Shown here one piece after another: positions 7,117 through 60,652 of a stretch of 64,000 nucleotides of DNA. Source of the DNA: a virus; IMG/VR virus record IMGVR_UViG_3300005531_000004, positions 1-64,000 of that record; one strand, written 5' to 3'. Made by a program: the position numbers and the translations under genes. The number at the start of each line of letters is the position of its first letter. Position 1 is the stretch's first letter. The notes beneath the pieces were generated by a model. That model was given only the letters and a program-made list of their open reading frames with translations. It had not been told where the DNA came from and ran no database searches.

Positions 7117-7869
7117 TTAAGCTCCTAAAATTGATCCGAAAGAAAATCCTTTTGCTGGAGGTGCTGGTTTAAACGCAGCAGCAGATGCAGCCCAATTTGC
7201 TTCAGTACCACCAGAAAATGCGGTTGCAATAGACCCTGAAGCTTGATTAAGAATATACTGCAACGATCCAAATGTAGCCACAGACATATTAATGCCGGGA
7301 GTATAACCAGTACCAGCCGAAAGATTGCCCGAATCTCCAACGAATGAACATACACATAAATCAGTGTTAGCTATTACAAGATTAGCAGTGCTTGGTGTGC
7401 TGGCTGTACCAGTATTATTATGGTTAGTCTCTTGGACAGTAAATTTGTTTCCGGCTGTTAATACACCAGTGAATACGTACACAGCAAATTCAGCAGTTAT
7501 GGTGTGAGTTACGCCAGAACCAGCAAAAATCCATGGAACAGATATTGTACTTCCTGCTGATATAGCGGGACAGTTTTGTAAGTAATATAAATAATTTCCT
7601 CTCGCAGAAATTGGAGATGCTATATTTATGGCTGTTTGTGCAGTCTGTACCCAATCCGACTGTGCCGCTCCCGGCACCGCTGGTTGCATGGTTGGAATTT
7701 CACGGTTACCTAAAGTAGATGCGGTAACGTTCGCTGCTCCATGCACTAATATAAGGCTTCCGGCTGCTACATTACTAGGAAATGTTGCACTAGTATTTAA
7801 TGTAAATGGTGTAGTATTTGTAGTGTTTCCATTCCCACCAAGAAACGATTGTGCTAATGCAATGCTCAT
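7117..7869 (-). CDS. fibre-like structural protein, Ser/Thr/Ala-rich
   Basis: A 250-residue protein of low charge, rich in Ala, Ser, Thr and Gly, with many short alternating stretches (for example TPFTLNTSATFPSNVAAGSL), suggesting a beta-rich virion appendage. No named family is recognised. Its start overlaps the stop of the upstream fibre gene and it ends 5 bases before the next fibre gene. Its position between two fibre-domain proteins supports a tail or decoration role. Confidence 0.65.
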   Translation of the reverse strand: MSIALAQSFLGGNGNTTNTTPFTLNTSATFPSNVAAGSLILVHGAANVTASTLGNREIPTMQPAVPGAAQSDWVQTAQTAINIASPISARGNYLYYLQNCPAISAGSTISVPWIFAGSGVTHTITAEFAVYVFTGVLTAGNKFTVQETNHNNTGTASTPSTANLVIANTDLCVCSFVGDSGNLSAGTGYTPGINMSVATFGSLQYILNQASGSIATAFSGGTEANWAASAAAFKPAPPAKGFSFGSILGA

Positions 7870-8600
7870 TATGGCACCGTTATATTTAAGGTAACGTTGA
7901 TTCTTGTTACCGTAGCAACTGAGTTCAAATTAAACTGTAGTTGATCCCCAGCATTAATAGCTGTAGTCCACTGTGTTAAAGTTAAGTTCTCATTCTTTTG
8001 CGCTGAAGACAGAGTTGGTTTATCGGTACCCGCTATAGAAGCAGTGGTAGGAAAACCCGCGTATGTTGAACGCAACACATCTACAACGGCTGATCCTGAT
8101 ACATCAGATGTGATCACCCAGCCTGTAATCGTACAGGCAAAAGGTATACTTAACTGGCCCTTAACACCAGTGCCGGGGGTTGATCCTCCACCGTCTATGG
8201 TGTAGTTAATAGCGGCAACTCGTGGGCTTAATGCGATGGTAGTACCGTTGATAGTAATTCCATTACCAGCAACTAACCCTCCACCCAAACCGATTGTTTG
8301 ATCTGGGTAAGATTGACTCAATAGACCATTAAGATAAACACACACTGTATAAGTGCCGGGAGTTACATAAAAATCATAGTGCCCAAAACCATCAGTTATA
8401 ATAGGCTGGGTTATAGGCACTAACCCGTTTGGATCACTAAAAATATTTTGGAGTGGGGTAGGAGTAGGATTAGCTGCGGTTAAGCTAGAAGGCACATTTG
8501 CAGGCTGCTGTACTACGAAAACTTGCGCTCCCGGTACGGCTGGTCCTAATGTTCCTTTTACAAAACCGTCATCTCTAAAAAAGGTTGGTACGTTTGCCAT
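7869..8600 (-). CDS. tail-fibre-like protein with a carbohydrate-binding/transthyretin-like N-domain
   Basis: A 243-residue protein. Residues 1-100 (VPTFFRDDGFVKG..., PNGLVPITQPIITDGFGHYD, FYVTPGTYTV) form a small beta domain like the peptidase regulatory or transthyretin-type fold. The same domain is duplicated in the frameshifted gene 5945-7112. The C-terminal half is Ser/Thr-rich, ending RINVTLNITVP. ATG 8600 is preferred over the GTG codon just upstream because GGAG precedes it. A virion appendage protein is the best inference. Confidence 0.65.
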   Translation of the reverse strand: MANVPTFFRDDGFVKGTLGPAVPGAQVFVVQQPANVPSSLTAANPTPTPLQNIFSDPNGLVPITQPIITDGFGHYDFYVTPGTYTVCVYLNGLLSQSYPDQTIGLGGGLVAGNGITINGTTIALSPRVAAINYTIDGGGSTPGTGVKGQLSIPFACTITGWVITSDVSGSAVVDVLRSTYAGFPTTASIAGTDKPTLSSAQKNENLTLTQWTTAINAGDQLQFNLNSVATVTRINVTLNITVP

Positions 8601-37835: not shown

Positions 37836-38376
37836 TAAATGGAAAATAATTAAAGAAGTGTACAAGGATAAGAGAAGAAAATATGAAGTGCAATGTTCGT
37901 GTGGGTATATAGGTTTTCGCAGAGCGGACTGGGTTGATACTGGTAGAAGTACTTCTTGTAAATCATGTTCTGCTAAAGAGACATTAAAAAATCACCCAAA
38001 TCCCGTATTTGCTAAGCGTGCTCATTTTGGTGTAGGAGATATTACCAAAACTTATTGGTATGCCATACGTCAAGGAGCACAGAAAAGAAACATAGAATTT
38101 GATATCACTATAGAACAAGCGTGGGAACTATTTGTTAAACAAAATGGAAAATGTGCTTTGTCTGGAGTAGATATACAGCTTTCTAGTGACTTGAAAAAGT
38201 GCAACCCTGATTATTCAAAAATTACAGCTTCTTTAGATAGAATTGATTCTACGAAGGGGTACATATTAAACAATATTCAGTGGGTTCATAAAACAGTAAA
38301 CTATATAAAAAGAGACTTGGATCAAGAAGAATTTATAACTTGGTGCCAACTGATTAGTAAAAATGAGAATAATTGA
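37786..38376 (+). CDS. HNH homing endonuclease
   Basis: Up to 196 residues; the true start may be a GTG within or just after the reductase end. Cys-rich N-domain VQCSCGYIGFRRADWVDTGR ... SCKSCSAKE, then NGKCALSGVDIQLS, ITASLDRIDSTKGYILNNIQ and WVHKTVNYIKRDLDQEEFIT: the HNH layout in which Cys-type ligands are partly replaced. It overlaps GMP reductase by 14 bases. Confidence 0.8.
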   Translation: MGISVTSQVKVGLVVANKWKIIKEVYKDKRRKYEVQCSCGYIGFRRADWVDTGRSTSCKSCSAKETLKNHPNPVFAKRAHFGVGDITKTYWYAIRQGAQKRNIEFDITIEQAWELFVKQNGKCALSGVDIQLSSDLKKCNPDYSKITASLDRIDSTKGYILNNIQWVHKTVNYIKRDLDQEEFITWCQLISKNENN

Positions 38377-39331
38377 CTCAGAGAAGTTAGATTTTTCGGA
38401 TGTGTTGCTTGTGCCACATCGTTCTAGTCTAACGAGTAGAAAAGAAGTAGATATCACAAGGGAATTCCATTTCAAACATGCTTATGGAACTTGGAGTGGA
38501 ATTCCCATAGTTTCATCGAACATGTCCAGTGTTACAAACTGGGAAACTGCCTCTACTATGCATCAAAGAGGTATGCTGGCTTGTATGCCTAAAAATCTCA
38601 GTTTAGTTTCAGTCAATAGAAACTATATCAACACGTTTGGCATGGAAGGCTTAAGCACTTTTAGAGAATCTTTGTTCCCAAGAATTATTTGTTTAGATGT
38701 GGCGAATGGTTATATGGAAAGGTTTGCTGATCTTGTAAAGCGCACTAGAGAAGAAGCAAAGTTTTCTATAATTATCGCTGGTAATGTTGTAACCCCTGAG
38801 ATGACTCAAGAGTTGATTCTATCAGGAGCAGACATTGTTAAAGTTGGTATTGGTAGCGGTTCTGCTTGTGCTACTCGTAGTGTGGCTGGTGTTGGTTTCC
38901 CGCAGTTCTCCGCAGTTGTTGAATGTGCCGATGCTGCTCATGGTTTGGGTGGGCATATTATGTCTGACGGTGGTTGTACTACTCCGGGGGATGTAGCTAA
39001 GGCATTTTGCGCTGGTGCTGATTTTGTAATGCTTGGAGGAATGCTTGCTGGACACGATGAAAACGGTTCCGAATTTTACGGAGAATCCTCAGAGAGAGCA
39101 AATATTTCAAATTCTGGTGGGCTCAAAGATTATCGGGCTTCTGAGGGTTTTGAGTTGGTTCTTCCCAAAAGAGGAGGACTTAACGGAACCTTACAAACAA
39201 TTGAAGGTGGCCTTAGAAGCTGTGGTGCCTATATCGGTGCAACGAAGCTTAAAGACTTCCCCAAGTGTGCAACGTTCATAAAAGTTAGACGAATTCTAAA
39301 TGAAAGCTTAAAGGAGTATAGGACTCAGTGA
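38363..39331 (+). CDS. GMP reductase / IMP dehydrogenase family protein
   Basis: A 322-residue TIM-barrel enzyme. [16 protein letters not shown] at the start, [31 protein letters not shown] with the catalytic Cys, [12 protein letters not shown], and [20 protein letters not shown] with MLGGMLAG. The length, without a CBS insert, and the GxGSxCxTR loop favour GMP reductase (GMP to IMP, NADPH). It overlaps the MazG-like gene by four bases, in the nucleotide metabolism set. Confidence 0.85.
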
Positions 39332-58130: not shown

Positions 58131-58544
58131 GTGAAGACGAAGGTTTGTTGTAAATGTGATAAGCGTAAGCCCATTACTTCCTTTTATAAAAGAAAAGATC
58201 GTAAAATAGGAATAATGTATTGTTGTAAGTTGTGTCAAGATAACAAGACTAAAAGCTGGGCTTCTCGCAATCCTAAAAAGTACAAAGACAAAAATAAAAA
58301 CGGCCATTTAAAGCACTATCATGGATTTTCCTTAGAAGACTTTAAAGAACTCTCAAAGAAACAAAAACATCGTTGTGCTATCTGTAAAAAGAAAACTAAG
58401 CTGTTTGTAGACCATAAACATAAAAGCAAACCAAGAAAAATAAGAGGACTACTTTGCCCCAATTGTAATTTTGCCATTGGACAATTTAAAGACAGTGTAG
58501 TTTCTCTAAAAAATGCAATAAAATACATTCAGGAGAATGCATGA
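58131..58544 (+). CDS. HNH homing endonuclease, endonuclease VII type
   Basis: A 137-residue protein from GTG 58131. KVCCKCDKRKPITSFYKRKD, YCCKLCQDNK, HRCAICKKKTKLFVDHKHKS, IRGLLCPNCNFAIGQFKDSV: two Cys pairs plus the HNH core and its final helix. It overlaps the next gene by four bases. Confidence 0.88.
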   Translation: MKTKVCCKCDKRKPITSFYKRKDRKIGIMYCCKLCQDNKTKSWASRNPKKYKDKNKNGHLKHYHGFSLEDFKELSKKQKHRCAICKKKTKLFVDHKHKSKPRKIRGLLCPNCNFAIGQFKDSVVSLKNAIKYIQENA

Positions 58545-59512
58545 GCGAAGAATTAACAGTGTTAAAACCTCAAAGCTTGGCTGTTATGGGAGGTGTAGGT
58601 TTAGGAAGTGCTATCTTCAAGACCCGTCCTGCTACTATCGAGCTTGTACCTCGTACCACTAGGCAGACAGGAGCAATCCCCGGTACCTTCCGTAATATGA
58701 TGACCAACGAAGTCATCGGCATTACAGATGAGGAAGGGAAGGTAGTAAAGAACGAATTCAAAGCTGTGTTGCTTGCTGTACCGCAACCTCAGCGTGAATG
58801 GTATAAGAATGATGGCAAGACGTTCAGCGCCGATATGAAGCAATGCTTCTCATTGGACAACGTTCAGCCACATCCTAAGGCGAAGAATCCTCCAGCCATG
58901 TTCTGCGCTACTTGTCCCAAGGGTGATATCAACTGGCAGAAGTGGCGCGATGGTGGACGTACACCTGATCTGTTGCCTCAGTGCCAAATGTACTATCACT
59001 TGGTATTGGCTGAGCGTAATTCCCAGCAACGTTATTACATGAACGTAAAGGGTAAGAGCGTGAAGCAGTTTAGGGACGCCATGGAAATGCAGATGGGTCC
59101 GCTGCTTGAAAAGATGGCTGCTAACGTAGTGATGATTAATCGCAGCCGTGGCTACAAGCTGAATAAGAATACAGGGCAGTTTGACTTTGTTGGTTTGCCT
59201 GAGGGAGTTACTGAAAAGCTTCCTGCTGAACCAATGCCTAACATCTTCGACATCTCCTTTACGGTTTATGCAACTGAGGACAAAGATAAGAACCTCATCA
59301 TGGGCTTTAAAGATTTTGCTCGTATGAAGCCCGAGGATCGTAAGGAGTTTGGTGCGCTGTATCAAGAGTACATGGAACAGCGTCAACAGTTCCAAGAAGC
59401 CGCTACACAAGCAGCCGTTACCGAGCAGAAACAAGCTGATGATGCTGTTAGTGAAGTGGTTGACGCTGAATATATTGCGAGTGATGGAAAAGACGCCCCT
59501 ATCACCCTGTAA
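58541..59512 (+). CDS. hypothetical early protein, possibly single-strand DNA-binding-like
   Basis: A 323-residue protein. Central motif MFCATCPKGDINWQKWRDGG ... PQCQMYYHLVLAERNSQQRY gives a possible zinc cluster and the remainder looks like an OB-type beta region (YYMNVKGKSVKQFRDAMEMQ). A very acidic, Gln/Ala-rich C-terminus (EQKQADDAVSEVVDAEYIAS) is common in single-strand binding proteins. Sequence identity is not recognised, so this is an inference from layout. Confidence 0.5.
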   Translation: MSEELTVLKPQSLAVMGGVGLGSAIFKTRPATIELVPRTTRQTGAIPGTFRNMMTNEVIGITDEEGKVVKNEFKAVLLAVPQPQREWYKNDGKTFSADMKQCFSLDNVQPHPKAKNPPAMFCATCPKGDINWQKWRDGGRTPDLLPQCQMYYHLVLAERNSQQRYYMNVKGKSVKQFRDAMEMQMGPLLEKMAANVVMINRSRGYKLNKNTGQFDFVGLPEGVTEKLPAEPMPNIFDISFTVYATEDKDKNLIMGFKDFARMKPEDRKEFGALYQEYMEQRQQFQEAATQAAVTEQKQADDAVSEVVDAEYIASDGKDAPITL

Positions 59513-59514
59513 GT

Positions 59515-59907
59515 ATGGCCTCAGAACATAGGAAAAAATATCAAAGAGAATGGATTGCTGAACGCAGGGAAAATTGGTTTAAAATCAATGGACCCTGCGT
59601 TAAATGTGGTTCTTGGGAAAACCTAGAAATACACCATAGAAATCCAGAAGAAAAAGTATGTCATAGAGTTTTTTCTTGGTCTAAAGCAAGAAGAGATGAA
59701 GAATTAAAAAAGTGTGATGTACTTTGTGAAAAATGTCATTTAGAAGTTACTAAAACTCAAATCAAAAGAACACGCCCCATACATCATATACATGGGACAA
59801 ATACTGAATATCGTCGTGGTTGTAGGTGTGAATTGTGTAAAGAAGCTAAACGTAAGGAAATAACTTTATACAGACTACGACAACAAGCTATGAGTGTAAG
59901 AAACTAA
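59515..59907 (+). CDS. HNH endonuclease adjoining the tmRNA
   Basis: A 130-residue protein. NGPCVKCGSWENLEIHHRNP, LKKCDVLCEKCHLEVTKTQI are the HNH core; a second Cys pair RRGCRCELCKEAKRK follows. Its TAA stop lies in the first bases of the tmRNA acceptor piece. It starts two bases after the previous stop. Confidence 0.85.
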   Translation: MASEHRKKYQREWIAERRENWFKINGPCVKCGSWENLEIHHRNPEEKVCHRVFSWSKARRDEELKKCDVLCEKCHLEVTKTQIKRTRPIHHIHGTNTEYRRGCRCELCKEAKRKEITLYRLRQQAMSVRN

Positions 59908-60210
59908 AACATAAGTAGATCAGACATGGGTGCGAATCCCATCACCTCCACCATAGACCTTCTGAACGCTGTAAGGAATGGTAACCTTAGCTAGTCTCTA
60001 ACCAAGATGAAGCAGAAGGTCTATAGAGGGGGTGTCATAGAATCGATGAATACTTTATGGTTAGTGGACACTTCGTTATAGCAAGCCGTTCGATATACGG
60101 AATGCAAAACAATAAACGCTAAGAATAACAAGCGTGCTGCTTTCAAGACCTTTGCTCCTAAGGCAATGGCTGTAGCAGCCTAAAGGATAGGGGCTAGCAA
60201 TAGCCCCTTA
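59904..60210 (+). ncRNA. ssrA: circularly permuted (two-piece) tmRNA
   Basis: The 3' acceptor piece comes first: T-arm ATGGG-TGCGAAT-CCCAT, then CACCTCC-A-CCA ending at 59953. A 74-base spacer follows, closed by an 11-pair stem (TAGACCTTCTG / CAGAAGGTCTA). The 5' piece starts GGGGGTG at 60028. GGGGGTG pairs with CACCTCC and includes G3-U70, the alanine mark. It then has TAGAATCGATG, the tag frame at 60118-60183 (GCT resume codon, 21 codons, ending AVAA then TAA) and a GGGGCTA-GCAA-TAGCCCC hairpin. Pairing of CTAA/CATAA upstream of the T-arm with TTATG/TTAG supports helix P2. Confidence 0.85.
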
Positions 60211-60232: not shown

Positions 60233-60652
60233 ATGGGAAGTCATTACGATACATGGCACAATGAACACCCGGAATTAAAACAAGATACTCAGCAAGCAAA
60301 TTCAGCAAGCAAACAAGTTCCACAAGAAGAACAAGTTCAATACCAAAAAGCATACGTTGGTGAGCCAAAGGCAGATTTTGATGCTTTAGTACGACGTTTA
60401 AACAACCTAGATAATCGGGTTAATAATTTAGAACAACCTGCATCGACTTCCGAATCCCTGTCTGTGCATGGTTTCACATTTCATTTTAAGCCACTGCCTA
60501 AACAAGACGTTATGATCAGTGGTGTGAATTCGCCGGGACGTGAAGGTTTGATGGTAGTTGTTAACGATGGGTTGAATGATTTCAGTGTGGCTAAGCTGGA
60601 ATGGGACCATCAGAAACAAGGGTTTGTTCTCTTTACTGGCAGAGGAGTCTAA
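60233..60652 (+). CDS. hypothetical protein
   Basis: A 139-residue protein. Gln-rich N-terminus, a short coiled coil (FDALVRRLNNLDNRVNNLEQ), then a beta domain (TFHFKPLPKQDVMISGVNSP). ATG 60233 follows GACTCAGAAAAGAGG. No family recognised. Confidence 0.5.
   Translation: MGSHYDTWHNEHPELKQDTQQANSASKQVPQEEQVQYQKAYVGEPKADFDALVRRLNNLDNRVNNLEQPASTSESLSVHGFTFHFKPLPKQDVMISGVNSPGREGLMVVVNDGLNDFSVAKLEWDHQKQGFVLFTGRGV

Follow-up and report, generated by a model that had tools for sequence, protein, structure and literature searches.

A circularly permuted tmRNA gene in a phage lineage linked to Acidobacteriota

The stretch of viral DNA analyzed here, called the window, belongs to a soil phage and covers 64 kb of a linear virus record with a length of 73,336 bp; it carries a circularly permuted tmRNA gene, with a match that is far beyond chance in Rfam, in ARAGORN, and in a geometric scan. 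As judged from sequence comparison, this gene quite probably encodes a functional phage-borne two-piece tmRNA of the alpha-like type, which would have been inherited within a phage lineage that has phages of Acidobacteriota among its members. An earlier note, made from the letters of the window alone, had read a permuted tmRNA of a phage from this region and had suggested a check with ARAGORN and with Rfam models including the permuted forms; both called the permuted tmRNA, independently of each other, in what is indeed part of a virus record.

The permuted tmRNA gene and its surroundings

The Rfam model RF04321 (tmRNA_permuted) matched positions 59892-60183 with 102.6 bits (cut-off 47, E 7.1e-19), and RF01849 (alpha_tmRNA) reached 60 bits versus a cut-off of 50. 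The beta and cyanobacterial tmRNA models remained below cut-off in the window, and no riboswitch was reported by Rfam at the tmRNA. The geometric scan for the same arrangement, which has a recall of 22/30 on known cases, gave 0 false matches in 1.13 Mb of other sequence with both strands counted.

The arrangement of the gene is listed in Table 1. All parts of the acceptor end described before were found base by base, the 3' strand CACCTCC at 59943-59949, the discriminator A at 59950, and the CCA at 59951-59953, and the seven bases of the 5' strand GGGGGTG all pair with CACCTCC, including the alanine identity pair G3-U70. The stem that closes the spacer has the 11 bp counted before, or 12 when the A of the CCA is included, and the spacer itself would be expected to be excised by analogy with known permuted tmRNAs. 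A resume codon, an open frame, and a stop are all present, and the tag of 21 codons has the AVAA end that had been predicted and a net charge of +5. The gene bounds needed a correction, with the start about 12 bases upstream of the one given before (59892 instead of 59904) and the end probably at the terminal hairpin near 60208.

Table 1 Features at the tmRNA locus of the window
Feature	Position	Strand	Basis or remark
Flanking gene	58541..59512	+	61% identical to a gene that precedes the tmRNA in the relative G001
HNH endonuclease ORF (phrog_4234)	59515..59907	+	Final codons overlap the tmRNA start
Acceptor piece: 5' strand of long helix P2, T arm (59926-59942), acceptor 3' strand, A, CCA	59892..59953	+	RF04321 alignment, predicted pairing with the coding piece
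Intervening segment, 74 nt; 11-bp stem 59954-59964 with 60013-60023	59954..60027	+	
Coding piece: acceptor 5' strand GGGGGTG (60028-60034), P2 3' strand, resume site, tag, terminal hairpin	60028..60208, 3' end approximate	+	
Tag reading frame: resume codon GCT, AKNNKRAAFKTFAPKAMAVAA, stop TAA	60118..60183	+	ARAGORN, frame candidates
Terminal hairpin AGGGGCTAGCAATAGCCCCT	60189..60208	+	AACAGAA hairpin occupies the same place in other permuted tmRNAs
Flanking gene	60233..60652	+	56% identity over 71 aa to the sequence downstream of the G001 tmRNA

Besides the tmRNA, the record encodes a terminase, a DNA polymerase, a ribonucleotide reductase, and 15 tRNA genes. A nucleotide-sugar epimerase at 902-1906 (phrog_540) and a dehydrogenase at 38363-39331 (phrog_9582) of the window are possible auxiliary metabolic genes. 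The tmRNA gene lies within a run of co-directional genes, the next ORF starting at 60233, and since no convincing promoter or terminator adjoined it in the window, it is likely co-transcribed with its neighbors. The HNH endonuclease ORF is probably not part of the tmRNA system and may possibly represent a homing endonuclease insertion. Neighbor genes are common to the window and G001 on both sides of the tmRNA, and to the window and the phage Tunturi_4 downstream of it; a search with the gene at 58541-59512 found no viral relatives. The record G002 (IMGVR_UViG_3300005533_000009) is 99.99-100% identical to positions 1-42649 of the window (42.6 kb) and continues the same phage leftwards, and it appears to be without a tmRNA because this overlap stops before the tmRNA gene. 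When 14 kb of the window was compared with the phage collection at high identity, no match was obtained.

The permuted tmRNA in the phage lineage

The DNA polymerase of the window is about 40% identical to the polymerases of Tunturi_3 and Tunturi_4, which come from tundra soil and had been isolated with Tunturiibacter (Acidobacteriota) as the host (PMC11924767). From this identity and the shared neighbor genes, we infer that the window phage would also have an acidobacterial host. Both isolates contain a permuted tmRNA above the Rfam cut-off, with 79.2 and 63.3 bits, which is missing from the feature table of the records, and the text of the isolate paper does not mention a tmRNA (PMC11924767). 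About 60 viral relatives were found via the DNA polymerase, and no relatives of this polymerase were found in bacterial genomes. A permuted tmRNA was present in 25 of the 50 surveyed relative records, and in 15 of the 17 of those longer than 80 kb. The records G046 and G054 were rescanned by the geometric search (recall 22/30), still without a permuted tmRNA. No one-piece tmRNA exceeded the cut-off in the lineage phages. Adding the window, the isolates Tunturi_3 and Tunturi_4, and three further records to the 25 surveyed cases gives a lineage set of 31 genes, 26 of them distinct, and each of the 31 shares its strand with the DNA polymerase.

The acceptor stems show covariation between the two halves. 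All 31 genes have seven of seven pairs with G3-U70, using 13 different stem sequences, and when the halves were swapped between different stems, just 12 of 156 combinations were fully paired. The spacer between the halves varies from 11 to 219 nt across the lineage, and the distance from G1 to the resume site of the open tag frame is similar among the relatives. The tmRNA of G006 (L078, 1501-1849, minus strand) has the acceptor end ACCC, not ACCA, which leaves the terminal A of the CCA unencoded. At the locus L006, an abiF RNA (RF03085, 54.3 bits) at 7820-7857 is located directly upstream of the phage permuted tmRNA at 7863-8128.

The tags are diverse. The 25 complete distinct lineage tags, the frames of which were picked by eye from the candidates according to resume position and place of the stop, are 10-36 aa long with net charges from −5 to +6, so that the basic tag of the window is near one extreme of the charge range. 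The resume codon is apparently a valine codon in Tunturi_3 and G024. An AA at the end of a tag belongs to the signal recognized by ClpXP. Such an end occurs in 13 of the 25 tags, including the AVAA of the window, and the remaining ends are AAAGR or ACGR (four tags), LVMA (three), AAAGV, AAAGA, FVKV, and LATA or YASA. A viral pattern scan yielded 49 stretches, 33 of which were called permuted tmRNAs by ARAGORN, and the tags of all 33 ended with AA; a tag-anchored pattern scan delivered 0 permuted cases and two tmRNAs that were one-piece according to ARAGORN. Because many relatives of the window phage have tags without the usual AA end, the tag may not act as it does in bacteria.

Within the AAAGR group, most of the nucleotide differences fall on third codon positions. 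The tags of G004 and G013 differ by 8 nt but 1 aa and those of G004 and G010 by 5 nt and 0 aa, both with a P of 0.0006 in a simulation of neutral change, although these P values are descriptive because the comparisons are few, short, and in regions chosen after the alignment had been viewed. Other pairs of this group have a weaker synonymous bias. Read in this descriptive sense, the pattern suggests that the AAAGR tags of one subgroup of relatives are under constraint at the peptide level.

Proposed function and origin

No SmpB gene was present in 36 lineage phage records, so a working phage tmRNA would have to borrow SmpB, AlaRS, and ribosomes from the host. According to the proposed mechanism, the tmRNA would be transcribed together with its co-directional neighbors, and RNase P and 3' processing of the host would remove the 74-nt spacer while both pieces remain paired. 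Host AlaRS could then charge the G3-U70 acceptor, and host SmpB would bring the charged tmRNA to ribosomes that have stalled because their mRNA is broken. From the GCT at 60118 onwards, translation would continue on the tmRNA, and the 21-aa tag would be added before the stop codon frees the ribosome. The benefit for the phage would probably be a continued supply of free ribosomes at a time when mRNAs are cleaved. In 4 of the 36 lineage records there is a gene for a small RF-1-domain protein that has a GGQ motif and resembles ribosome-rescue hydrolases; the one in Tunturi_4 (L321 1947-2294, which is PP885687.1 43946-44293) lies on the strand of the tmRNA match, with its end 4 nt upstream of that match. 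The occurrence of these genes, one of them adjoining the tmRNA, is a hint that ribosome rescue matters to the lineage.

Degradation of the tagged proteins is plausible for the window phage from its AVAA end and doubtful for the relatives with AAAGR ends, which means that it probably differs among members of the lineage. It is conceivable, as a tentative proposal that goes further, that the lineage adds a two-piece tmRNA to the one-piece tmRNA of its hosts during infection, with a tag that often is no degron (AAAGR) and is under selection at the peptide level, allowing rescue without marking for destruction.

A different use of the same molecule would be that of a decoy or inhibitor, in which the phage tmRNA titrates SmpB or ribosomes of the host and blocks host trans-translation, with its own tag being of little weight. 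The element of mycobacteriophage DS6A, which is little beyond a tRNA-like domain, is a precedent, and a molecule that resembles it is a strong inhibitor of tmRNA (PMC4131195); moreover, a phage without SmpB has to compete for that of the host, and many lineage tags have no AA end. For a decoy, an open tag frame, a resume site, and a stop would be dispensable, yet these are kept throughout the lineage, and the AAAGR tags show signs of constraint at the peptide level, so that a pure decoy appears unlikely compared to a functional tmRNA that tags.

Concerning the origin, a one-piece tmRNA with 160-195 bits was present in all eight Acidobacteriota genomes checked, which included relatives of Tunturiibacter, Granulicella, Edaphobacter, and Terriglobus and strain X5P2, the host of Tunturi_3. 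The host tags given by ARAGORN were AEPQFALAA (five genomes), ANDNLALAA, ANTEFALAA, and ANNNLALAA. When the permuted model was run against 396 genomes of Acidobacteriota, it gave 13 matches, which were judged to be artifacts: at 12 of these 13 loci, ARAGORN finds a one-piece tmRNA of the ordinary kind, genes for tRNA-Val and tRNA-Asp are beside it in 11 of these 12, and the thirteenth locus, L310, contains the same pair of tRNA genes near the end of the stretch and is cut short. Surveys with RF04321 may thus encounter apparently spurious matches of up to 72 bits where tRNA-Val and tRNA-Asp precede a one-piece tmRNA (L302-L314). Since the survey of the 396 genomes ran with stricter filters that lose weak matches, the result for Acidobacteriota is given as no permuted tmRNA found. 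The earlier note had considered that the gene might come from the host, and this is unlikely for the present form of the gene because the acidobacterial hosts of the related phages use a one-piece tmRNA.

The sequence features fit best with a proteobacterial, alpha-like type of tmRNA that would have come from proteobacteria and then descended with the phages. That an acidobacterial one-piece tmRNA was newly permuted inside the phages, giving an independent lineage beside the alpha, beta, and cyanobacterial ones, agrees with the one-piece form as the only one in the hosts checked but has a low probability in view of the terminal hairpin and the model scores. The exact AACAGAA hairpin follows the tag in 11 of 25 lineage members, and among the other viral tmRNAs checked, two of three of the alpha type and both of the beta type have it as well, whereas the word occurs anywhere in the sequence in just one of the eight host tmRNAs; the window carries a shortened GCTAGCAATAGC compared to the CNNGNAACAGAA of the alpha type. 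In addition, the alpha model exceeded its cut-off in four members of the lineage, the window, G027, G029, and G021, with most others below, while the beta and cyanobacterial models did so in none. Finally, a non-functional relic or a passenger, carried for instance with the HNH endonuclease ORF, the end of which reaches into the tmRNA gene of the window, is highly improbable given the compensated acceptor stems in every member, the presence of the tmRNA in nearly all records above 80 kb, the fixed orientation, and the other neighbors in the relatives.

Comparison with known tmRNA systems

The alphaproteobacterial two-piece tmRNA (RF01849) shares with that of the window the permuted order, the tRNA-like domain with G3-U70, the spacer, and the open tag frame. 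The gene of the window differs in being located in a phage and in its basic tag of 21 aa, compared to the acidic ANDNYAPAMAIAA in an alpha-type viral contig. The tmRNA of the Acidobacteriota hosts (RF00023) serves the same pathway and has an alanine-type tRNA-like domain as does that of the phage, but it is not permuted, has a length of about 354 nt, and uses tags of 9 aa that end with ALAA, e.g., AEPQFALAA. The tmRNAs of Bxz1 and other mycobacteriophages and of Bacillus phage G are not known to have any but the one-piece form. They are likewise phage-borne (PMC4131195). The two-piece tmRNA of methylophage Melnitz and of SAR11 myophages resembles that of the window in being phage-encoded, permuted, and alpha-like, in a phage whose host is not alphaproteobacterial; Melnitz differs in being marine, in a glutamine riboswitch in the gene, and in a gammaproteobacterial host in the GTDB sense (PMC9004378). 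The isolates related to the window phage infect Acidobacteriota with a one-piece tmRNA.

Counting every form, 79 tmRNA sequences of phages have been described (PMC11915505), and in a survey of 2021, reported in 2022, 53 of 133 unique phage tmRNAs were two-piece (PMC9004378). A two-piece tmRNA of a phage is therefore not new in kind, and the gene of the window, which had been called notable for being in a phage, is real but less surprising than assumed. Among open-licence papers, no description was found of a near-constant two-piece tmRNA in an Acidobacteriota-linked phage lineage, the hosts of which have the one-piece form, with tags that do not end with AA. Within that scope, what is new is the near-constant presence of a permuted tmRNA in the large records of such a lineage, with many tags lacking the AA end, and AAAGR tags would be a natural case in which ribosomes are rescued without proteolysis. 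Because two phages of the lineage and their hosts are in culture, the gene form is unlike that of the host, and the tags can be distinguished from those of the host by mass spectrometry, phage-run trans-translation and the purpose of the tagging are directly testable.
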